Source: Vibrio tritonius (GTDB lineage Bacteria > Pseudomonadota > Gammaproteobacteria > Enterobacterales > Vibrionaceae). Taken from it: a DNA stretch of 64,000 bases. Of the stretch, positions 563 through 32,056 are shown in pieces. The position numbers and the translations under genes were made by a program. Position 1 is the stretch's first letter; each line of letters opens with the position of its first letter. Location of the stretch: contig NZ_AP014635.1 in NCBI RefSeq assembly GCF_001547935.1, positions 2,418,001 through 2,482,000 of the forward strand, given 5' to 3'. The notes beneath the pieces were generated by a model. That model made no database searches, was not told the origin of the DNA, and was given only the letters and a program-made list of their open reading frames with translations.

Positions 563-2668
563 TTAAACAGGTCGCACACTATCTTTATCAAGTACCGCTT
601 GAAAACGTTGCTCAATAAAGTGGACATTGGGGTCACTGGCTAAACTGTCCATTGCTTGGGAAAGTTTACCTTGGTACAGACGCTCTCTCAATTCTAGAGG
701 GGTTTCACCATCTTCACCAATTGTAACGGTTAAATGGCACTCCTCTTCAAGTTGGTCATTGAGCGCGTGTAGAAGTTCACTTTGTGCTTTGTCATTATTT
801 AGGTGAGCATGACTTGGGCGTAGAACGAGCTCAATCGAGGAACCATCTTTACGATAAAACGAGTTAAGAGCTAACTGTTCCACAAGTTTTGCTGTATCTG
901 TTTTGGCAATTAGTGCTGCCCATTCATTCTGCTCTATCGACTCTTGAGCGAGTTTTTCAGCCATCGCAGGCGTCTTCTCATGCTCAAGAGCACGCTTTAA
1001 TTGTGTAGGTGTGAGCTCTGATTTTTTCTCAACATGTTTCTCTGGTTGAGAAAAACGCCATTGATAATCACGCTCATCGATAACGTCGTCTTGCTCGGCG
1101 CCTGCCTCATCATAAACGTATTCTGGCGACACCTGAGCAGGTTGGCTGATTTGCCCACGCTGAGCAACACGCTCAATCACTGTGGTTGGCTTATCAGATG
1201 TCGCTTGGCCCTTTTTTGCGCCGTTCTCACCTTTGGCTGCTAGACCTTTACGCTGAGAACGTAATTGGTGACGTAAGCTGCCAATCTGGGAATGACGAGG
1301 CTCCGTCGATGCTTGATTAGGTGCTTGCTGAGACACTGGCGACTCAACAGGTACTGATTGCTGTTCAGGCACTGGTTGAGAGACAGCCCCACCAACATTA
1401 GGTGGTACTGCCGTGTTCGGCATCGGTGTTTTAGCAGGCGGAACATAGGCTGGCTGCTGTGGCGCTGGTGTTGATGGCTGAGTTTGAGCCGGAGCCACGG
1501 ATGACTCAACGCCCGAATTTGACAGCGGCATTGAAGTGACAGCCGCTCGGTCAGGCTGCGCGACAATCGCTTGTGCAGTCACTGATGCTGGCCTAAACGC
1601 CATCATACGCAGTACGATCATTTCAATGCCAATACGAGCCGTTGGTGACAGCGGTAAATCCTGCCGCCCTTTCAATGCAATTTGATAATACAACTGCACA
1701 TCTTGTGGCGAAAGCATATCGGCGATCGCTCGAACTTTATCCGCATCCGGTAACTCTTTATCTAGCGATGACGGCAAAGCCTGAACCATGGCGATACGAT
1801 GTAACTGCGTTGCTAATTGCTGAAGCAAACCATCCCATTCAACGCCATTCTCAGCGAAGGTGTGAATAGTATCCATCACGGTTTGGGTCGAATAAGACCC
1901 AATCGCAACCAGCAGGTTTAACGCTTGGTCAGTATCTAACGTGCCCAACATGTGGGTCACTGTGTCAGCATGAACTTGACCATTACCTAATGCGATAGCT
2001 TGGTCAGTCAAACTCAAGGCATCGCGCATACTGCCATCTGCAGCATGGGCAAGCATTGCCAAGGCGCGAGGCTCACTTGTGATCTGCTCTTGAGTTAAAA
2101 TGTGTTCCAATTGCTGTGAAATGGTCTCCACACCAATTGGTTTTAAATGAAACTGCAAGCACCGGGACAAGATAGTCACCGGTAACTTTTGGGGATCTGT
2201 GGTCGCCAGAAGAAACTTCACATATTCTGGTGGTTCTTCTAGTGTCTTCAATAAGGCGTTAAAACTATGACGAGAGAGCATGTGCACTTCGTCAATAAGA
2301 TAAACTTTAAAGCGACCACGAGCCGGCTTGTATTGTACGTTATCCAGCAACTCGCGCGTGTCTTCTACTTTAGTGCGAGAAGCCGCGTCGATTTCTAAAA
2401 GATCGACAAAACGGCCTTGGTCGATTTCTCGACACGTAGCACACTGACCACAAGGATTGGCGGTAATACCGGTTTCGCAATTTAATCCTTTAGCGAAGAG
2501 TCGAGCAATGGAGGTTTTACCCACCCCTCGAGTCCCGCTGAACAGATAGGCGTGATGAAGCCTATTTTGCGTCAGGGCGTTCTCTAAAGCTGTTAATACA
2601 TGGGATTGACCAACGACTTCATTGAATCGAGTCGGTCTCCATTTACGCGCAAGAGCAAGATAACTCAT
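563..2668 (-). CDS. dnaX: DNA polymerase III subunits tau and gamma
   Basis: The full-length product (701 aa) is tau, the clamp-loader ATPase that also tethers the polymerase cores and contacts DnaB. Visible parts are the Walker A motif GTRGVGKTS near residue 45, a four-cysteine zinc module at about residues 64-79, and the DExH-like LIDEVHML near residue 125. A long Pro/Gln-rich linker spans about residues 370-480, and the tau-specific C-terminal domain follows. A shorter gamma form should arise by a -1 frameshift at codons 485-486 (separate entry). The ATG start begins MSYLALARKWRP, the canonical N-terminus. It lies 21 nt downstream of apt and 76 nt upstream of ybaB. Confidence 0.97.
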   Translation of the reverse strand: MSYLALARKWRPTRFNEVVGQSHVLTALENALTQNRLHHAYLFSGTRGVGKTSIARLFAKGLNCETGITANPCGQCATCREIDQGRFVDLLEIDAASRTKVEDTRELLDNVQYKPARGRFKVYLIDEVHMLSRHSFNALLKTLEEPPEYVKFLLATTDPQKLPVTILSRCLQFHLKPIGVETISQQLEHILTQEQITSEPRALAMLAHAADGSMRDALSLTDQAIALGNGQVHADTVTHMLGTLDTDQALNLLVAIGSYSTQTVMDTIHTFAENGVEWDGLLQQLATQLHRIAMVQALPSSLDKELPDADKVRAIADMLSPQDVQLYYQIALKGRQDLPLSPTARIGIEMIVLRMMAFRPASVTAQAIVAQPDRAAVTSMPLSNSGVESSVAPAQTQPSTPAPQQPAYVPPAKTPMPNTAVPPNVGGAVSQPVPEQQSVPVESPVSQQAPNQASTEPRHSQIGSLRHQLRSQRKGLAAKGENGAKKGQATSDKPTTVIERVAQRGQISQPAQVSPEYVYDEAGAEQDDVIDERDYQWRFSQPEKHVEKKSELTPTQLKRALEHEKTPAMAEKLAQESIEQNEWAALIAKTDTAKLVEQLALNSFYRKDGSSIELVLRPSHAHLNNDKAQSELLHALNDQLEEECHLTVTIGEDGETPLELRERLYQGKLSQAMDSLASDPNVHFIEQRFQAVLDKDSVRPV
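1194..1234 (-). other. Programmed -1 ribosomal frameshift site in dnaX
   Basis: On the coding (minus) strand the heptamer A AAA AAG lies at 1217-1211, in frame with codons Ala484-Lys485-Lys486. A Shine-Dalgarno-like AAAGGTGAG sits at 1234-1226, about 8 nt upstream. After a -1 slip the ribosome would read five codons (G P S D I) and stop at TGA 1196-1194, giving a gamma product of about 491 aa. The heptamer and upstream stimulator match the E. coli dnaX mechanism. I see no convincing stem-loop directly after the heptamer; a short hairpin lies about 40 nt downstream. Confidence 0.8.
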
Positions 2669-2689
2669 GAATACTTCCGTTTTGGGTGT

Positions 2690-3235
2690 TTAGTGGCCTT
2701 CGAATTCACAGATGCTGTAAACGTTTAAGCCTAAACTTTCCAAACGCTTGTCTCCACCAATTTCTGGTAGGTTGATAACAAATGCAGCATGCTCAACTTC
2801 ACCACCTAGTTGGCGGATAAGCTTAGTTGTGGCTTCAATGGTACCACCTGTTGCAAGTAAATCATCAACGACAAGCACTTTATCGCCTGGCTTGATCGCA
2901 TCAACATGGATTTCCAGTGTATCAGTACCGTATTCCAAATCGTAGGTTTGTGCGATTGTTTTCCGTGGCAATTTGCCTGGTTTACGGACAGGTACAAAAC
3001 CCACACCCAATTCAAGCGCCAATGGTGCACCAAATAGGAAACCACGAGCTTCTGTACCCACAACTTTGGTAAAGCCCATTGCTTTGTATTTGTCCACTAG
3101 CAATTGAATTGTCGCGCGGTATGCTTCTGCATCTTCTAGCAGACTAGTCACATCACGGAACAAGATTCCTGGCTTTGGGTAGTCATTGATACTTTTAATG
3201 CTTGATTTGATAAGTGAAAGAGTTTCGGTTGTCAT
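2690..3235 (-). CDS. apt: Adenine phosphoribosyltransferase
   Basis: This cytoplasmic purine-salvage enzyme makes AMP from adenine and PRPP. The PRPP-binding motif [13 protein letters not shown] is present near residue 120, and the N-terminus [16 protein letters not shown] leads into [12 protein letters not shown], as in the family. The open frame extends 43 codons further upstream, but that part looks like leader sequence. The ATG at 3235 gives 181 aa, close to the 183 aa of E. coli Apt. It sits just upstream of dnaX. Confidence 0.95.
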
Positions 3236-3331
3236 AATTACGTTAACTTCGATTGAGACAATGCTCCCGTGAATAATCACAGCATTGCTGTTTAAAATTC
3301 TTCGCCCGTAATCCGAAGATTTCCAGACGCT

Positions 3332-3362
3332 GAAAAAACAAACGCCCACTCGAAGAGTGGGC
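3332..3362 (-). terminator. Rho-independent terminator after ybaN
   Basis: A 7-bp GC-rich stem (GCCCACT/AGTGGGC, 3344-3362) is followed on the minus strand by a T-rich run (GTTTGTTTTTTC). It lies 17 nt after the ybaN stop codon and separates ybaN from apt. Confidence 0.8.
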
Positions 3363-3378
3363 ACACTTCCACATAATG

Positions 3379-3768
3379 CTAGTGATTTTCGCGTCTATTA
3401 GCAACAAGCTCGTGCGTTGGTAGCTTAAGAAACCAGCTCATTAGAATCACAAAAACCACAAAAAGTAGCACTTTAAGCCATAGATTAGGCACAATATAAA
3501 TGGAAAAACAAAAACTTAGCGCAATCATTATCGCACCACGTTGTTTGACTACTTTTGATACAGCTCGCTGTTCTTGCCATGTGACTAGAACGGGACCCAA
3601 CATTTTATGCTGATGTAACCAACGATAACAACGTGGGCTGCTTTTCATAAAACAGTAACTGGCTAAAAGTAAAAATGGCGTGGTCGGCAACAAAGGTAAG
3701 AATATTCCCGCAATCCCTAATAGAACAGCAAGAACCCCCACTCCCAGCAGTGCCCATTTTTTAATCAT
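3379..3768 (-). CDS. ybaN: DUF454 (YbaN family) inner-membrane protein
   Basis: This small membrane protein has no firmly established function. It shows three hydrophobic helices: roughly residues 5-37, with the family's [23 protein letters not shown] motif, then about 75-92 and 93-112. The ATG at 3768 is preferred because a GGTGA sequence lies 6-7 nt upstream; a GTG at 3777 would add three residues. It is transcribed toward apt but separated from it by a terminator. YbaN is often found next to apt in Gammaproteobacteria. Confidence 0.8.
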
Positions 3769-3851
3769 CTGATTCACCGAGATTTATCTGTTAACGATAT
3801 CATGCTAACCAGAGTGTTTTATAAAGTCTTTAGAAGGGAAAAATACCGTTA

Positions 3852-3914
3852 CAAATAAAAGGTAATACAGGGCGAACTCTGAACAATCACTAGCAATTCG
3901 CCATGTATTACCTT
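3852..3914 (-). terminator. Long hairpin downstream of rssB, probable terminator
   Basis: Arms AAGGTAATACA (3859-3869) and TGTATTACCTT (3904-3914) pair perfectly. An inner GGCGAA/TTCGCC pair follows after one mismatch, leaving a 20-nt loop. On the minus strand the stem ends in TTTTATTTG, so it can terminate rssB, whose stop is 7 nt upstream. The stem is longer than the other terminators in the window. Confidence 0.6.
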
Positions 3915-3921
3915 AGAGACA

Positions 3922-5106
3922 TTAGATTTCGTAGAGGTCTTGCTGGGTGAAAATATCGAAACTAAAACTACTTGAACCGATATTGTGCAGAGTTAATTTG
4001 CAACCTTGACCAATTTGCAACTCTTTAGTCATAAAGTTCTTCAAGCATTGATTACCAAGCATCACATCGCCGGAAATATGCATTTTTTTGCGTCCATTAG
4101 ACCACTGACAATCCAGCCCTGCAGGTAATATCGAAAGGCTTGCGTCATTGAAATCAACTAAGCCAAATAACGCAGACACGGGCTCAGTACAATCTGAACA
4201 ACCGATACCACGTTCCAATATGGTCGCTAGGTCTTTCAAATCAACACTCATGCTGCGCAAATTACGCAAGTAATCATGGAACAATGCTCGCACCAACAAG
4301 GTGGTACCGACACCTTTATCTTCTCCACTCGCGGAGTCGATAATGTAAAATGCCATTTGCCCATTCATCAACCATGTGTAATCAAAAACTAACGGCAAAC
4401 TTTCTGTCGATTGCAACAAACGATAGCTACAATGCCAAGCGCCTTGAGAACTGTCATTTTCTGGCAGCAAAGCATGGAGTAACTCTTTGGCAGCATTAGG
4501 ATTTTTGTGTAAATAATCTAGATGCCAATGCAGTTCACGCTCTTCCGGCATATCTCCGCCATCATCAACACGAAACCATTGACTGGAAAAGTCACGCTTA
4601 TCCGCCACGGTGTTTTCTGTGTCTTCTAACGTGCTCTCGATGGCGCAGGCCAAATGCTCATGATTGCTGATAGGCTTGGGCAAAAAGTCTTTAATACCAA
4701 ACTTAAGTGCTTTAGCGACTTCAGACATATCTTCTGTCGCAGAAACCACAATCAACGGAAGTGATGGATAAGCACCGCTTGCTTCTTCAACAAATTCTAT
4801 CCCGTTCAACACCGGCATTGATAAATCGCATAATACAAGGTCTGGTGGCGTTTCTTTTAATTTACGCAAACCGTCTAAGCCATCTTCGGCTTCAATAACG
4901 ATATAACCTTGAGCGACTAAATAGCCACGCGTGATACGGCGAAAGATGGGATCATCATCAACGACCATGATGATCTTGGGTTGAACAGCTTCATGCACTT
5001 GCGCCTTAGCCTCATCATCAATCCGACCCTCTGTTTTATACATAGCTTGAACCTCACTATGCTCTTCCTGTTCACAAATTTTTTTATTGTTATAGGATAG
5101 TTTCAT
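3922..5106 (-). CDS. rssB: RssB-type response regulator (RpoS degradation adaptor homologue)
   Basis: The N-terminal receiver domain (about residues 44-165) contains the acidic pair VVDDDP, the phospho-acceptor Asp94 in LCDLSMP, and the Lys of FLPKPI. The segment VVSATEDMSEVAKALKFGIK strongly resembles E. coli RssB, and the C-terminal half is a PP2C-like domain apparently without phosphatase metal residues, also as in RssB. In E. coli, RssB delivers sigma-S to ClpXP. The protein is longer than E. coli RssB (394 against 337 aa), mainly through about 43 extra N-terminal residues. An in-frame ATG at 5043 is an alternative start; 5106 is kept because AGGT lies 5 nt upstream. It is divergent from the LysR gene. 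Confidence 0.75.
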   Translation of the reverse strand: MKLSYNNKKICEQEEHSEVQAMYKTEGRIDDEAKAQVHEAVQPKIIMVVDDDPIFRRITRGYLVAQGYIVIEAEDGLDGLRKLKETPPDLVLCDLSMPVLNGIEFVEEASGAYPSLPLIVVSATEDMSEVAKALKFGIKDFLPKPISNHEHLACAIESTLEDTENTVADKRDFSSQWFRVDDGGDMPEERELHWHLDYLHKNPNAAKELLHALLPENDSSQGAWHCSYRLLQSTESLPLVFDYTWLMNGQMAFYIIDSASGEDKGVGTTLLVRALFHDYLRNLRSMSVDLKDLATILERGIGCSDCTEPVSALFGLVDFNDASLSILPAGLDCQWSNGRKKMHISGDVMLGNQCLKNFMTKELQIGQGCKLTLHNIGSSSFSFDIFTQQDLYEI

Positions 5107-6954: not shown

Positions 6955-9072
6955 CTAATAAAACTTCTCCCCTTTTCCTGCGCGATCTAATAACCCGCTA
7001 TAAGGGGCAAATCGAGCTCCATAAAGCTCGCTATAACGGTTCATAATGTCAATTACCTTCGGTAGTCCAATTCGGTCCATATAAGAGAATGGCCCACCAA
7101 GAAAAGGAGGGAACCCTATACCAAATATCGCTCCGACATCACCATCACGAGCAGAAGCAATCACCTGTTCATCTAAACATCGTGCCGCTTCATTAAGCAT
7201 GGGTAATAGGCAGCGTAAAGATATTGTTTTTGGTGTTAAATGCGTTTCGCTCGACAACCCAAACATCCGGTAAACCTTGCGATCCACTTCCTTACGTTCT
7301 CCTTGACGATAAACATAAAACCCTTTGCCCACTTTTCGTCCTAACCGTCCACTGGCAAGTAAGGGTTCAAAAATATCAGGGCCAGAAAATCGCGCTCCTA
7401 AATTCTCCACCAAGTTAGGGATCACTTTAGCACCTATATCAATTCCCACCTCATCTAATAAGGTAATAGGTCCAACTGGAAATCCAAAGTTGACTAACGC
7501 CTGGTCAATCTCATCTATCGGCTCACCATCCATCATCAATTGTGCAGCCTCATTCATGTAAGGCGCCAAAATACGATTGACATAAAACCCCGCACTATCT
7601 TTTACAACGATAGGTGTCTTACCTTGCCGCCTAGCGAAACTTACTGCCAAAGCAATCGTATCTTGCGAGGTTGTGCTGTGTGGCACCACTTCAACCAATG
7701 GCATTTTATCTACCGGACTAAAGTAATGCAGACCAATGATTCGCTCCGGGTTAGCCGCTTTTGCTGCGATAGCATGAATTGGAATAGAAGAGGTATTAGA
7801 AGCAAACACCAAGTTCGCATTGTTTTGGGTTAATGCTTCGACTTCTTGCACCATCTGTTGCTTGAGAGCGACATCTTCAAACACCGCTTCAATCACCAAC
7901 TGACAACGATCCAAGGTATTGAACTCCGTCCCGCCAGACAGACGTGACATAATGTTACGTACTTGATATTGATTCAGCTTGCCACGCTTTTTCTGCGTCT
8001 GTAACCTTTGATATGCATATCGTAAAGCGGACGCCACCCCTTGATTCGCAACATCTTTAATTCGGACATGCATTCCCGCTTTATGAGCGCTAACATAACT
8101 AATCCCAGCGCCCATAAAACCGCCCCCTAACACCAACGCATGGGTTAATCCACCATCACTTGATTTGCCTTGCTGCTCTTTCTTCAGTTGTGTCGTGGCA
8201 AAAAACAGTTTTCTTAATGCCTGTGATTCAGGCGTCATAACCAACTCACCAAATTTGGCTGCTTCTGCTTCTAGGCCTTTCTCAAAGCCCGCTTTACTCC
8301 CCTGCCGAATGACATCCAAAATCGCATCGACCGCTGGGTAGTTACCGCGCCCTTTTTTAAAAGCTTGCGCTTGCGCTTTTTCTAACACCCGATGTCGAAT
8401 CCAATTTGATTTCACCAACACTCTTTCTAGCCAAGGTAGCTGTCGGGCCACTCGTTTGTGCTCTAACCAACGTTGAGCCACATCCAAAAGCACACTATGA
8501 GCGACAATGGCATCCACCACACCAAGCTTTAATGCTTTTTTGGCTACTAGGGTTTTACCAGATAAAATCATATCTAAAGCGGGTAAAAGGCCGATTAACC
8601 TCGGTAATCGTTGCGTTCCACCAGAGCCGGGCAGCAGTCCTAACTTAACTTCTGGTAACCCAAGCACTGTGATGTTCTCTTCCGAACAAATACGATAATC
8701 GCACGCTAATGCCAGCTCTAAGCCGCCTCCGAGACACGTACCATGAATCGCTGCAACGGAAGGGAAAGGTAAAGCCTCAATTCGGCCAAACAACTGCTGG
8801 CCCCGAGCCGCGATTTCTTGCGCTTCACTCGCACTCGAGCAAGCATCAATCATGTTAACGTCAGCGCCAGCCACAAAGTTATCATCTTTGGCTGAATAGA
8901 TAACAAGGCCTTTAATACGGCTTTGTCGTGCTTCAAGTTCTGCGAGAATTTCGTCAAAACGGACAATAGATTCACGTTTCAGCGTATTCATTTTTTCGTT
9001 AGGAACATCGATACACAACCATGCAATAGAATGGTTATCGATGGAAAATTGCAGTCCACTTTGTTCAGTCAT
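6955..9072 (-). CDS. fadJ: Fatty-acid oxidation complex subunit alpha FadJ
   Basis: This multifunctional beta-oxidation enzyme of 705 aa (E. coli FadJ has 714) combines enoyl-CoA hydratase and 3-hydroxyacyl-CoA dehydrogenase. The N-terminal crotonase domain shows the oxyanion-hole segments [12 protein letters not shown] and [19 protein letters not shown]. The NAD-binding domain starts at [12 protein letters not shown] near residue 315, and two 3HCDH C-terminal domains follow ([32 protein letters not shown]). The ATG at 9072 follows a strong GGAGGTGG ribosome-binding site and overlaps the fadI stop (ATGA), indicating translational coupling. The upstream frame extension is not needed. Confidence 0.96.
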
Positions 9073-10385
9073 TCTTCCACCTCCAGTACCATTGCCACAC
9101 CCAAGCCTCCAGCAGCACATGCGCTTGTTAAAGCCAAGCCACCACCACGTTTGCGCAGTGCATACAAGGTTTGAGTCAGCATTCTCGTGCCTGTTGCCGC
9201 AAAAGGGTGACCATAGGCAATCGATCCGCCTTGCACATTAAAGCGTTCCCAATCCACCTCTCCAACTGCAGTTTTACGACCAAGACGTGTTGTAGAAAAC
9301 GTATTACTGCCCAATGCCCGCACATTAGCGAGCACTTGGGAGGAAAAAGCTTCGTGCATATCGATAAGGGTTAAATCTTTAAGGCCAATTCCCGCCCGCT
9401 CAAGAGCTGTGGGAATAGCATAGGCTGGCCCCATTAACATATCCTGCATCACCTCAATCCCCGTAAAGGCATAAGATCGCAGAAATCCCATAATAGGTAA
9501 CCCTAACTCTTTAGCACGGCCTTCTCTCATTAATAGAACGGCAGATGCCCCATCGGTTAACGGTGAACTATTGCCTGCGGTAACCGAACCATAGCGGCGA
9601 TCAAATACCGGTTTGAGCATAGCGTAGTCATCGAGTGAGGCATCGGCTCTTAGCGTGTTATCTCGCTCTAGCCAGTTAGAATAAGGTTCGGGGAATGCCA
9701 CCATGACTTGTTCGTTTAAGCTGCCTTGATCCCACGCTTGCGTTGCGAGTTGGTGAGAACGAAAGGCAAATTCATCTTGGTCGTGCCGACTGATACTATG
9801 GCTTTTCGCCATTTGTTCAGCGATTTGCCCCATAGAAAGGCCCGTGGAATAATCAGCTATAGGCAGTGCGACAGGTAAGAAATCTCGCATATGTAACCGG
9901 CGTAACAAAGAGAGTTTATCTAGCCAAGAACGTTTTTTCGACATGGCCAACAAGGTGGCAGCTAAAGGCTTTGACACACCAATAGGCAGCACAGAACTAG
10001 AATCCGCACCACCAGCAATTCCTGCCTCAATCGACCCTGCAACAATACTTTCGGCGACCGAAGCGACGGCCTGAAAACTGGTCGCACAGGCACGAGACAC
10101 ACTATACGCATCCGTTGTAACAGGCATCCCGGTGCCAATCACTATCTCACGGGCAATATTTGGTGCTTCCGGCATTTGAATAACTTGGCCAAAAACCACT
10201 TGATCAATCCAGCGTGGATCAACATGTGAGCGAAGTAGTAACTCTCGCACCACCATTTTACCTAATTCAACCGCTGGTAGAGCTTTTAGCTCTGTACCTT
10301 GGCGAGCAAATGGCGTGCGTAATCCTGCGACAAAGGCGACACGCTCTCTAGAACATGTCGTCACACAATTCTCTTGATGAGCCAT
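9069..10385 (-). CDS. fadI: 3-ketoacyl-CoA thiolase FadI
   Basis: This thiolase (438 aa; E. coli FadI has 436) performs the last step of beta-oxidation with FadJ. The nucleophilic Cys lies in [14 protein letters not shown] (about residue 95), and the catalytic His and second Cys lie in [11 protein letters not shown] and [15 protein letters not shown] near the C-terminus. The start has GAGGAG 6 nt upstream. It is the first gene of the fadIJ operon, with a FadR-type operator directly upstream. FadI/FadJ is the second (YfcYX-type) complex, distinct from FadA/FadB. Confidence 0.96.
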
Positions 10386-10401: not shown

Positions 10402-10418
10402 ATTGGTCTGACCTGAAT
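10402..10418. promoter_or_regulatory. FadR-type operator upstream of fadI
   Basis: The 17-mer ATTGGTCTGACCTGAAT contains the TGGTCNGACC core of the GntR-family regulator FadR. It lies 17 nt upstream of the fadI start, in or just before the 5' UTR, where FadR would repress and long-chain acyl-CoA would induce. The match was found by eye. Confidence 0.65.
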
Positions 10419-10744: not shown

Positions 10745-10908
10745 AAAAAAAAACCACACAAGTCATTGTGTGGTTGGAATTTATAAAGCAATTAACTTAC
10801 GCCAATTGAAAAATAATCAGTTTCCTGATTAGGAGAAAGTAAAGTCAGCCTTCAAAAGGAAGTGTCATCTTGCTCAACACGCTAATCACAAGGACTAACT
10901 AGATGACA
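10745..10908 (-). ncRNA. Candidate small regulatory RNA (FnrS-like)
   Basis: No reading frame is present, but the minus strand carries a promoter, ordered hairpins and an ideal terminator. From the predicted 5' end, TGTCATCT (10908-10901) pairs with AGATGACA (10870-10863). Inside it GTTAGTC pairs with GATTAGC, using G-U pairs. Two more hairpins follow: CTTC/GAAG (10850-10862), and AATCAG/CTGATT (10815-10830) with a GAAA loop. The end is a 9-bp stem (10752-10775) with nine T residues. A single-stranded pyrimidine-rich linker (CTTTCTCCT, 10831-10839) could pair with ribosome-binding sites. The ACTTCCTTTTGAA stretch resembles part of E. coli FnrS. Neither function nor expression is shown by the sequence. 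Confidence 0.65.
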
Positions 10909-10914
10909 AGGTTT

Positions 10915-10955
10915 ACTATAGCCACTTTAGGACAACAAAAATTGAATTAGATCAA
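10915..10955 (-). promoter_or_regulatory. FNR-type box and -10 element for the candidate sRNA
   Basis: On the minus strand TTGATCTAATTCAA (10955-10942) matches the FNR consensus TTGAT-N4-ATCAA at 9 of 10 positions. A TATAGT -10 hexamer lies at 10920-10915. If transcription starts at 10908 the box is centred at about -40.5, close to the -41.5 of class II FNR activation. There is no good -35 element, which fits activator dependence. Confidence 0.55.
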
Positions 10956-11456
10956 TTTTGATGTGATTTATTCGAGGTATGAAATTTAAAATTGATTCAA
11001 AACAATCTCTATGCAGATTGTGCTTTACAAGGATAAAACACCTTTCTTTACGTTTTTCTCTCGTCAACTCTCATTAAAAAAACTAGCATTCTAGCCACTT
11101 CTTTACTATTAATTGAGTCAATATAAACATCAAATATCCATTTTTAATCATTTAAATAAAAATGCAGTATGAATGACCAAGTTAATACATTTAACTTGTT
11201 AAATAAATGGCCCAATTAAAGCGAATGTTTTTAAATAGCACAATAAATAAACACACAACTTTCAGTAGAGTTTTTGCTCTACTTATCCGATTTTTCCGGT
11301 CTATTTACGCCGATTCACCATCATTTCCACAATTTTATCGTATTTTTACCCATTAGTCGGATTGCCAAATGCTAACGTAACGTCTAGTATCAGCGACCCA
11401 CTGAGTAATTGCTCAAGTTAACGCCCAAAAGAGGCGTAAAACCATAGGAAAAACAC
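10956..11456. other. AT-rich gene-free region upstream of fadL
   Basis: There is no credible coding frame. It contains a TTTAAC/GTTAAA inverted repeat (11190-11203) within a run of TTAAT/TTAAC/TTAAA elements that loosely resembles ArcA boxes. A small ACGCC/GGCGT hairpin (about 11422-11439) lies in the fadL leader just before its ribosome-binding site. I could not identify a clear FadR box for fadL here. Confidence 0.4.
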
Positions 11457-12680
11457 ATGAAGAAGACACGTCTATTTAAAAAGACACTAGTTGCATTGAC
11501 CGTTGGTCTCGCGACACAGCAAGCTGCTGCTGCGGGCTTCCAACTCAACGCACAGTCTGCGACGGGCCTTGGCCGTGCTTTTGCTGGCGATGCCGTCATT
11601 GCGGACAATGCATCTGCAATGGCTCGTAACCCTGCCACTATGGCACTATTTGACAAAACCTCGCTCTCTTTAGGTTTTGAAACGATTACCACAAAAATCG
11701 ATGTTAAAGATGCGACTTACAATGGCTCATCCATTGATGACGTAGATAATGTTGGTAGCACTTCTGTTGCACCTAACATTCATCTCATTGTCCCGGTAAA
11801 TGATAAATTTGCATGGGGTGTGGATGCTTACACCAACTTTGGTACTAAAACAGAATTTTCTGATGATTACCCAGCAGCACAATACGGTGGCTTAACCGAC
11901 GTTAAAAGCTTTAACTTTGGTTTGGCTGGTTCTTATCGTCTAAACGAGGCGTGGAGTTTAGGTGCTGGAATTGATGTTATTTATGGTCAAGGCACCATGA
12001 AACGTGCTTACCCAGGCTCTTCAACGTTGAACCTTATTGACGTAGATAAAGCCGACGGTTGGGCTGTCGGTTATAACGTTGGCACTGTGTACGAAGTAAA
12101 CGAAAACAACCGTTTTGGTTTAGCTTATCACCATAGTCCAGAATTCAAAGCAAAAGATGACAATGGTCAAGAGATCACCTTACCGCTACCTGATATCGCT
12201 GAATTCTCTGGCTACCACCGTATTAAAGACACACGTTTTGCCGTGCACTATAGTGTGCAATGGATTGGTTGGAATTCTTTCGACAAAATCGATTTTGACA
12301 ATCTAGACTCCAGCAAGAGCGTACTAGCATTGAGCAGCACTTCTTATGATAAACAGTACAAGTGGCAGAACGGTTGGCACTATGCAATCGGCGGCACCTT
12401 CTACTTAAACAAAACCTGGACATTGCGCGCTGGTTATATGTATGACACCAGTGCTCAAGACTCTGTAACTTCGATTTCAGTTCCAGATTCAGATCGCCAA
12501 TGGTTCTCCACTGGTGTCACTTACCAGATCGATGACAAATCCAATGTCGACTTTGGCTTTACCTATCTGTTAGGTAAAGATGTTAAAGTAAATGAAAATT
12601 CGGTTAGTCCAACTGTACTTAACGCGACCACTCGCGCGGACGCTATCCTGTTGGGTCTACAGTACAGCCGCACATTCTAA
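11457..12680 (+). CDS. fadL: Long-chain fatty-acid outer-membrane transporter FadL family
   Basis: This outer-membrane porin-like protein of 407 aa binds long-chain fatty acids and passes them inward. A signal peptide (about residues 1-25, ending AAAA) is followed by GFQLNAQSATGLGRAFAGDA. That segment includes the N-terminal hatch, with the family's SAMARNPATMALF motif near residue 55. The rest is beta-strand rich and ends in YSRTF, with a terminal Phe for BAM recognition. AGGA lies 8 nt before the ATG. The nearby fadIJ operon makes a fatty-acid role likely. Vibrios often carry more than one fadL paralogue; only one is in this window. Confidence 0.92.
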   Translation: MKKTRLFKKTLVALTVGLATQQAAAAGFQLNAQSATGLGRAFAGDAVIADNASAMARNPATMALFDKTSLSLGFETITTKIDVKDATYNGSSIDDVDNVGSTSVAPNIHLIVPVNDKFAWGVDAYTNFGTKTEFSDDYPAAQYGGLTDVKSFNFGLAGSYRLNEAWSLGAGIDVIYGQGTMKRAYPGSSTLNLIDVDKADGWAVGYNVGTVYEVNENNRFGLAYHHSPEFKAKDDNGQEITLPLPDIAEFSGYHRIKDTRFAVHYSVQWIGWNSFDKIDFDNLDSSKSVLALSSTSYDKQYKWQNGWHYAIGGTFYLNKTWTLRAGYMYDTSAQDSVTSISVPDSDRQWFSTGVTYQIDDKSNVDFGFTYLLGKDVKVNENSVSPTVLNATTRADAILLGLQYSRTF

Positions 12681-27875: not shown

Positions 27876-28865
27876 TTAGCCGCCAATAGACGCCAAATGA
27901 GGTGTCATACCAGTATTTCCATCATGCAGAAAATGGCTCACCGACTTGGTTTGTAAGTGTGATTGGATACGTTGAATCAGAGCATATTGCTGCTCATCGG
28001 CTTGCATTAGATCGCGTAATTCCACGCCTTCTTCACCAAATAAACACAAGTGAAGCTTGCCCATCGCTGAAATTCTTAAACGATTGCAGCTTTCACAAAA
28101 GTGCTTTTCGTAAGGCATAATCAAGCCAATTTCGCCTTGATAGTCTGCATGGACAAAGACTTGCGCAGGACCATCGTTATGACCACGTGCTTTAAGAATC
28201 CAACCATTAGCGATCAAAAAGTTTCGTATTGATGTACCAGAAACATGATGCTGGTTAAACAGATCATCCATCTCGCCTGTTTGCATCAACTCAATAAACC
28301 GCAACTGAATAGGACGTTGTTTTATCCATTGCAAAAATTGCGGTAACTCTTGATGATTGAGGTGCTTCATCAAGACAACATTGACTTTAACCTGCTGATA
28401 CCCAACTTCAAACGCTCGGTCAATACCAGCCATCACTTGGTGAAAGCGGTTTTGACCAGTGATTTGATGGAACATTCTCGGGTCGAGACTATCTACGCTG
28501 ACATTAATGTGGGTTAAACCCGCTTCGCGCCATTCTCCAACCTGTTTTTCCATTCGGTAACCATTGGTCGTGGTCGCCACTTTTTCGATACCTGGCGTCT
28601 GAGCGACGACATCAATAATATCGGTAAAATCTTTCCGTAAAGTTGGCTCCCCTCCGGTAATACGCACTTTAGACGTACCACAGTTAGCAAACGCATGAAC
28701 CACACGTTTGATCTCTGGTAGAGTAATAAAGGATGAGTTACGCTGGCCCGAAGGCTGATAGCCATCAGGAAGACAGTAAGTACATTTAAAGTTACAGACA
28801 TCTGTAACAGACAAACGCAAATAATAGAATTTACGTTCAAATCGATCTTGAAATTGTTGCGCCAC
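27876..28865 (-). CDS. moaA: GTP 3',8-cyclase MoaA (radical SAM)
   Basis: MoaA starts molybdenum-cofactor synthesis by rearranging GTP with radical SAM chemistry. The N-terminal [4Fe-4S] cluster motif CNFKCTYC is at about residue 24, and the C-terminal cluster cysteines lie in [21 protein letters not shown]. The C-terminus ends in a Gly-Gly tail (HLASIGG), which is required in this family. The GTG at 28865 is chosen because GGAAAGG lies 6 nt upstream and it gives 329 aa, the length of E. coli MoaA. The leader looks like a Moco riboswitch that includes this ribosome-binding site. Confidence 0.95.
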
Positions 28866-28966
28866 GAAACACCTTTCCAAACACGGGAGGCACCATCATT
28901 TCTCATCGTGCCCTCGTGGCATTATTGCCACTGGCTGCAGCACCATATCAGCGTTAGACTTAGGTG
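28866..28966 (-). promoter_or_regulatory. Probable molybdenum-cofactor (Moco) riboswitch leader
   Basis: On the minus strand the moaA leader shows a perfect GTGGCA/TGCCAC hairpin, then a GGCAC/GTGCC stem, then CCTCCCGTGTTTGGAAAGG running into the GTG start. The CCTCCC...GGAAAGG block is, from memory, characteristic of gammaproteobacterial Moco RNAs upstream of moaA. Outer boundaries are approximate. The GGAAAGG is also the ribosome-binding site, so control of translation is likely. Confidence 0.6.
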
Positions 28967-29171
28967 ATGAAGCTCGGAGTTATGGCAACTGATTGCACAA
29001 CATGAACAGTCACACAAAAAGTAGCTGCGGCTAAAATACTTAAAATCTGTATATCTTTCCACCCTTTAAACGAAAAAAAGATCGCCCCTACCTCACTTTT
29101 TTGGCAAAGCGATACCGCTTGTTAAAGAAATGACCTACATTGTGCTCACCTTCGTTAACCAAGCAGAATCA

Positions 29172-31959: not shown

Positions 31960-32056
31960 TGACTCGCAAGAGTCACCTAGCCAACTGACGTTGTTAGTGA
32001 ATTTATTATTCACAGAATTAAAGCCAATAGAGCCTATTTCTATTGGCTATTTTTTT
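31960..32056 (+). ncRNA. qrr1: Quorum-regulatory small RNA Qrr1
   Basis: This sRNA of about 97 nt begins with a perfect hairpin GACTC-GCAA-GAGTC. It continues CACCTAGCCAACTGACGTTG and TTAGTGAA, the core that pairs with luxR/hapR, aphA and other mRNAs with Hfq. It ends in a terminator (AGCCAATAGA/TATTGGCT plus seven T). The position next to luxO is the conserved Qrr1 locus. It is activated by LuxO-P and sigma-54 at low cell density. Confidence 0.96.

Follow-up and report, generated by a model that had tools for sequence, protein, structure and literature searches.

A conserved Vibrionaceae small RNA gene with an FNR-type promoter, most likely orthologous to Vcr043 of Vibrio cholerae

On the evidence of sequence conservation, the window (the whole stretch of 64,000 nucleotides of Vibrio tritonius DNA that was analysed) encodes a conserved small RNA gene with an FNR-type promoter. 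We consider it quite probable that the product of this gene is a widespread trans-acting small RNA of the Vibrionaceae, the orthologue of V. cholerae Vcr043, which would be switched by FNR, assisted by Hfq and similar to Escherichia coli FnrS in kind but not descended from it. The likely role of such an RNA is to adjust genes linked to oxygen once oxygen becomes scarce. The transcript itself is most likely already known from V. cholerae as Vcr043, and the aspect that is new here is the link to oxygen suggested by its FNR-type promoter.

Architecture, conservation and distribution of the gene

The minus strand of positions 10745-10955 carries an FNR-type box, a -10 element, a two-part 5' stem, two hairpins, an invariant core and a terminator (Table 1), so that all of the elements named in the preliminary description of this unit, including the nested stem and the CUUUCUCCU stretch, were recovered. 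A covariance model built from 30 relatives (R1, match limit E 0.01) matches positions 10745-10908 of the window over 164 nt with 185 bits. A unit of 164 nt starting at U10908 had been proposed earlier; the unit itself is retained, but its start is placed more likely at G10907, which gives 163 nt, because in the alignment of 30 loci T, C and G all occur in the first column, and the following G is invariant and opens the helix.

Table 1. Positions of the small RNA gene, its parts and promoter, the neighbouring genes and other RNA elements of the window
Feature	Position	Strand	Basis or remark
fadI (thiolase)	9069..10385	-	Pfam Thiolase_N, Thiolase_C; downstream, ~360 nt past the terminator
Small RNA gene	10745..10907	-	163 nt if the invariant G10907 is +1 (earlier: 10908)
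Intrinsic terminator, nine U, 10 pairs	10745..10775	-	Fold and terminator scan
Hairpin CAAUUGGC...GUUAAUUG	10789..10808	-	Fold and alignment; altered in some distant members, e.g. L083
Hairpin UAAUCAG-GAAA-CUGAUUA	10814..10831	-	Fold and alignment
Invariant core CACUUCC...CUGAUUA	10814..10864	-	Column identity and exact 22-nt matches; partly single-stranded
Putative anti-Shine-Dalgarno stretch CUUUCUCCU	10831..10839	-	Pairing with the grxA ribosome site
10-mer ACUUCCUUUU common to E. coli FnrS	10854..10863	-	Local alignment with MG1655 fnrS
5' two-part stem	10863..10907	-	7 pairs plus nested 7-pair stem; covariation
-10 element TATAGT	10915..10920	-	Comparison of promoter segments
FNR-type box TTGATCTAATTCAA	10942..10955	-	9 of 10 consensus positions; centre -41.5 from G10907
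fadL	11457..12680	+	Pfam Toluene_X/FadL; divergent neighbour in the window
Molybdenum/tungsten cofactor riboswitch	28854-28991	-	Rfam search of the window
Qrr quorum-sensing small RNA	31960-32056	+	Rfam search of the window

The two-part 5' stem includes many G-U pairs when read on the minus strand, consistent with an RNA made from that strand, and the terminator is the sole terminator-like match between fadI and fadL. A terminator with nine U is the type of 3' end that is bound by Hfq. The fold energy of the 164-nt RNA is -41.2 kcal/mol as compared with -29.5 kcal/mol for shuffled sequences (z -3.13; 2 of 200 as good). No Rfam family covers the locus at the gathering cut-off, and the matches up to E 10 are weak and belong to unrelated families alone. 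The peptide MTLPFEG was considered as a conserved coding function of the RNA and was rejected, as a change of AUG to ACG in 10 of the 30 loci breaks the frame.

A DNA search of 61 genomes returned the locus from 34, which comprise 34 of the 37 members of the window's genus and none of the 24 other genomes, and 30 of the returned loci were aligned. Mean column identity across these 30 Vibrio loci is 0.97 for the box, 0.98 for the -10 element and 0.999 for the core (48 columns); it drops to 0.58 in the upstream DNA, to 0.55 in the spacer and to 0.48 past the terminator. Half of the pairs of the 5' helices (7 of 14) change on both sides yet stay paired in some sequences, with A-U replaced by G-C in 10 of the 30 loci. 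Double-sided changes over the whole RNA number 36 cells against 9.6 in shuffles, with none of 500 shuffles reaching 36; kindred sequences may exceed shuffles even in the absence of structure, and the slid-structure control, in which 20-45% of cells are paired as compared with 99.3% for the true structure, agrees with covariation. The two middle hairpins hardly vary, and covariation therefore neither supports nor opposes them. Hairpins and an FNR box that were not conserved even in close relatives would, by the preliminary description, have refuted the unit, and the alignment of the 30 loci shows otherwise. As far as sequence alone can tell, it is conservation, and not the rarity of the box, that shows the locus to be real.

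Model R1 matches 252 of 296 Vibrionaceae genomes, representing 8 of 13 genera. In 295 genomes sampled across the order it has 21 matches, of which 19 are inside the Vibrionaceae; the two outside are weak (E 0.003 and 0.005), and the one inspected (L081) is a terminator that has neither the box nor the core. At least 117 stretches of named genomes contain 22 nt of the core without a mismatch, and the 80 stretches listed with this piece all come from the Vibrionaceae (Vibrio, Photobacterium, Aliivibrio, Enterovibrio and Grimontia). When 20 of the 44 unmatched genomes of the family were searched again with lax settings, 10 yielded a match at E 5 or better, and the three matches examined were a diverged relative with the box (L112, in G302), a tRNA region (L113) and a sequence without the box (L114). 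Box and core are both degraded in two Vibrio genomes, G227 and G312 (loci L108 and L109).

Three Vibrio loci (L110, L111 and L112) keep the FNR box, the -10 element and the terminator around an RNA body that is largely different. These divergent bodies possibly represent re-targeting of the small RNA.

The FNR-type promoter and the probable relation to Vcr043

With the predicted +1 taken as G10907, the centre of the FNR-type box falls at -41.5, which replaces the value of -40.5 given earlier, and the promoter has class II FNR geometry with the box at -41.5 ahead of the -10 element. A class II FNR promoter does not need a good -35. A consensus promoter scan detected no promoter at the locus and no -35 is recognisable; the blank result is expected for that reason. 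The sequence TTGATCTANTTCAA is found in all 30 aligned Vibrio loci. Among the 117 stretches of named genomes in the matches listed, 109 carry the exact box TTGATCTNNTTCAA, seven others depart from it at one or two positions of its second half, and one is cut too short. The spacing was examined in 122 distinct promoter segments, which were selected for a TTGATCT box followed some 17-25 nt later by a -10 element; the distance from box to -10 is 21 nt in 121 of these segments, the -10 sequence is TATAGT in 111, TATATT in 10 and TATAAC in one, and a GUC-type start follows the -10 at 7 nt in 112.

A box arising by chance was also considered. FNR-like sites with at most one mismatch number 9 in the window against 4.5 expected, and 2 of 100 shuffles give 9 or more; rarity in one window is not significant, and conservation settles the question in favour of a real box. 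An FNR protein with 83-88% identity to that of E. coli was found in 26 of 28 genomes tested, that of the window included, and the two genomes without FNR at E 1e-60 are of ~1 Mb each and hold no convincing copy of the RNA. From this promoter we infer that the RNA is FNR-dependent and induced at low oxygen.

According to the searchable text of PMC8545128, Vcr043 is an RNA of ~160 nt located between VC1045, a divergent sigma-70 gene, and VC1046. V. mimicus was used as a stand-in for V. cholerae. Its locus (L165) has a Sigma70_r2 ORF at 1722-2288 (minus strand), the RNA at 2467-2627 (plus strand) and a thiolase (fadI) ORF at 2684-4081 (plus strand), which places the RNA beside a divergent sigma-70 gene, as for Vcr043. 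The RNA is 161 nt long in V. mimicus and 164 nt in the model match of the window, and R1 scores 177.2 bits in V. mimicus and 177.9 bits in V. metoecus. The window keeps fadI, but its RNA adjoins fadL on the opposite side, whereas the neighbour of Vcr043 is the sigma-70 gene. Position, size and neighbours make the window RNA most likely the orthologue of Vcr043, and the likeness extends from the divergent sigma-70 neighbour (as in V. mimicus) and the length of ~160 nt to an association with Hfq, which is predicted for the window RNA, and the conserved grxA pairing site.

This assignment connects the window RNA with a body of work on V. cholerae, the one species covered by the descriptions found in searchable text. 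As far as that text goes, Vcr043 was recovered by Hfq RIL-seq, was termed "uncharacterized" by the authors in 2022, and has four targets validated by GFP reporters, among which grxA, vc0036 and sdhC have electron-transport roles (PMC9732341); its stability depends on Hfq (cited in PMC5089854), and it forms several stable intermediates with maturation by RNase E (PMC7398697). An FNR or oxygen link for Vcr043 was not found in the searchable literature text, where the FNR mentions of PMC9438474 are unrelated to it. The earlier suggestion of an undescribed relative is partly right: the likely V. cholerae counterpart, Vcr043, has been described as an Hfq-associated small RNA with targets, though with no FNR or oxygen link in the texts searched. 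The targets validated in V. cholerae would be expected to hold in the species of the window.

The V. cholerae work also supplies the alternative that survives best. In the portions of PMC8545128 available as searchable text, Vcr043 raises rpoS ~3-fold and its level is alike at all growth phases in LB, and the latter result weakens the case for a strict oxygen switch. The RNA could then be a real small RNA with stress control through rpoS, or the control of other genes, as its main job, and FNR would merely tune a largely constitutive promoter. We regard this as unlikely, though worth serious consideration, because an FNR-type box at fixed spacing together with the lack of a recognisable -35 points to an activator-dependent promoter, and because the electron-transport roles belong to three of the four validated targets (PMC9732341, searchable text).

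Ownership of the box and comparison with FnrS

A different role for the box is suggested by Ravcheev et al. (2007), whose predictions for the Vibrionaceae include Fnr sites ahead of fadIJ and of fadL (PMC1805755, accessible text). The box might serve these genes, and the RNA would then be a 5' leader of fadI or a by-product of its transcription; fadI does lie downstream on the same strand, and Vcr043 is one of 14 V. cholerae small RNAs counted as possible 5' UTRs in the accessible text of PMC5089854. We judge this improbable. The nine-U terminator lies ~360 nt before fadI, and the Hfq-dependent stability of Vcr043 suggests a function in trans (PMC5089854, accessible text). The spacing of the box to the -10 element and start is fixed, while the distance from the core to the beginning of the fadI match ranges from 189 to 651 nt in the 109 stretches, out of the 117 among the matches listed, that show this match (six of the remaining eight end too early, and L211 and L246 show no fadI). 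The start of fadL is mostly distant, at 1.5-2.2 kb in 70 of the 86 stretches in which it was found and at less than 0.8 kb in 16. The region upstream of fadI was also checked in 20 Vibrio genomes with no or a poor RNA match, of which 19 were evaluable (L321 is incomplete). In 16 of the 19, the 700 nt before the fadI match contain no FNR-type box, and the other three retain the box alongside an RNA with a diverged body. This joint absence, the fixed box spacing and the variable distances to fadI and fadL all link the box to the RNA and not to the fad genes.

Several features of this neighbourhood are of separate interest. In the window, fadL is less than 0.6 kb from the small RNA (gap 10956-11456); V. 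mimicus has a sigma-70-like gene and a DUF3379 gene in the interval from the small RNA to fadL, a module that is missing in the window. The fadI of the window (9069-10385) has only about 62-71% identity to the fadI matches of the 78 named loci compared, Photobacterium included, and may have an unusual history. Directly upstream of it, at 10404-10414, TGGTCTGACCT differs by one mismatch from the palindrome AGGTCTGACCT, which we take to resemble a FadR site, and similar palindromes precede fadI in many Vibrio loci.

The regulator that uses the box could also be another protein of the CRP/FNR family, as the second half-site reads TTCAA rather than ATCAA in 30 of 30 aligned loci. This is very improbable in our view, given a first half-site, TTGAT, that is canonical for FNR, the presence of an FNR 83-88% identical to that of E. 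coli, and the requirement of a CRP site for TGTGA.

The preliminary description had viewed the RNA as a counterpart of FnrS or a relative of it, and had proposed a search with the FnrS model. At the cut-off of 60 bits, none of 150 Vibrionaceae genomes passes this model (RF01796); the RNA is not Rfam FnrS, and at the locus in the window the model gives no match up to E 10; as a positive control, it scores E. coli fnrS at 134.8 bits. Sub-threshold matches occur in 58 of the 150 genomes with a best score of 35.2 bits, and the four best are terminators without an FNR box. Model R1 in turn scores 5.9 bits on E. coli fnrS (E 0.076 in 801 bases). The neighbours differ as well, being zntB and ynaL/dbpA in MG1655 as compared with fadI and fadL in the window. 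The two RNAs are alike in having an FNR-type box upstream (TTGAGCGAAGTCAA from 49 nt before the annotated 5' end of E. coli fnrS), a 5' stem followed by ACUUCCUUUU, and a terminator, and they are unlike in length (122 nt for FnrS, 163 nt here), in the lack of a family-level match of sequence or structure and in the CUUUCUCCU stretch, which fnrS does not have.

The 10-mer ACUUCCUUUU follows the first stem in both RNAs and corresponds to positions 50-59 of E. coli fnrS; as evidence it is weak, with 33 of 1000 shuffles (80 of 1000 if the terminator is included) aligning equally well. Pairing mutants of E. coli fnrS were made at 57-59, inside ACUUCCUUUU, and at 47-49, just before it (PMC8595263, accessible text). 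Membership of the FnrS family was rejected on the RF01796 scores below the cut-off, the low R1 score on fnrS and the differing neighbours. A true but diverged member of that family, inherited from an ancestor shared with the enterobacteria, is scarcely credible. An FNR-type box, a comparable size class, a terminator and ACUUCCUUUU placed after a 5' stem speak for it; against it stand no match above the cut-off in 150 genomes, best lesser matches that are terminators without the box, 5.9 bits for R1 on fnrS, 19 of 21 R1 matches in the sampled order falling in the family itself, other neighbours, and a gain of FnrS placed in the Enterobacteriales by the accessible text of PMC4114697.

What is retained of the original proposal is a real small RNA gene, a class II promoter of FNR type and a likeness in kind to FnrS, while descent from FnrS is given up. 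The best reading would be a functional counterpart of E. coli FnrS that has a separate origin. FnrS acts on aerobic functions. Fantappie et al. are also said to have described in 2011 an FNR-controlled, Hfq-dependent small RNA of Neisseria meningitidis under oxygen limitation, and the likeness to the RNA of the Vibrionaceae (FNR control, Hfq, oxygen limitation) is taken from the title of that work.

Predicted targets and biological meaning

The invariant core is presumably the region that pairs with mRNAs. To evaluate targets, the core of the window was used against every genome, rather than the RNA of each genome itself. The sequence ACUUUCUCCU, which is CUUUCUCCU with one flanking base, forms 10 pairs with AGGAGAGAGT, the ribosome site of grxA in the window genome, at -18.3 kcal/mol. 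Of 50 gene starts in the window one pairs as well, and so does one of the 362 other starts in the background, from which fadI starts were left out; this comparison used unbroken helices. Over 30 genomes, grxA reaches -15.27 kcal/mol in 10 (6 of 362 background starts do so) and -13.6 kcal/mol in 19 (27 of 362). The same levels are reached in none and in two, respectively, of four genomes in which the RNA is absent or diverged (G087, G137, G235 and G314). We regard the predicted pairing with grxA as well supported in silico.

The predicted pairing with sdhC is weakly supported in silico, and the published reporter is the main ground for this target. In 11 of 30 genomes, all of them Vibrio, the core forms a long duplex with interruptions that spans the ribosome site and first codons and has -26 kcal/mol or less; in other genera the duplex is weak. 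Energies as low are found for 2-3 of 47 window genes, for 12-24 of the 321 starts in the background and for 13-39 of the 300 cores that were shuffled. One of the 11 positive genomes is G227 (L264), in which the RNA itself is degraded. The duplex of the window has -24.5 kcal/mol, with 8 of 47 window genes pairing equally well, and the sdhC starts of the 30 genomes form no long unbroken helix with the core.

Two strict seed-complement patterns were counted in the window genome and gave 14 and 7 sites as compared with 11 and 0 for their reversed controls. The RNA itself accounts for one place in each list and few places are at gene starts; inspection by eye found a plausible adjacent start for one CheY-like gene and one GNAT-like gene alone. 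In the duplex-energy comparison, seven of the 15 best partners of the core among 321 starts are fadI starts, with AAGGAGAAA before the ATG (L157, L136, L142, L153, L144, L175 and L186), and fadI starts are over-represented among the loci of that background. The small RNA may also regulate this downstream neighbour.

In the mechanism that we propose, low oxygen would allow FNR to bind at -41.5 and switch on the RNA by class II activation. The RNA would act with Hfq, and its invariant core, mainly CUUUCUCCU and ACUUCCUUUUGAAGG, would pair with mRNAs linked to oxygen and redox functions, grxA and sdhC among them, in their ribosome-binding regions. This pairing would keep ribosomes off the grxA and sdhC mRNAs, and both genes would be repressed; rpoS would be raised by way of its leader. 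A broader view, which we offer tentatively as a possibility, is that the Vibrionaceae evolved their own FNR-driven master small RNA independently of FnrS, with the same exposed ACUUCCUUUU plus an anti-ribosome-site stretch, through which the oxygen sensor would be connected with genes of redox and TCA functions (grxA, sdhC), with the general stress factor RpoS and perhaps with the adjacent fatty-acid gene fadI.

This nearly invariant small RNA is carried by most of the sampled Vibrionaceae and has validated targets in V. cholerae, with no signal stated for it in the searchable literature text. Its promoter suggests that the signal is oxygen acting through FNR, which would turn an orphan regulator into the basis of a testable anaerobic regulon. 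If this is true, the RNA would account for part of FNR control in bacteria that give no match to the FnrS model, an FNR site that had earlier been attributed by prediction to fatty-acid genes would be reassigned to a small RNA, and the circuit of FNR and small RNA would represent a case of convergent evolution.
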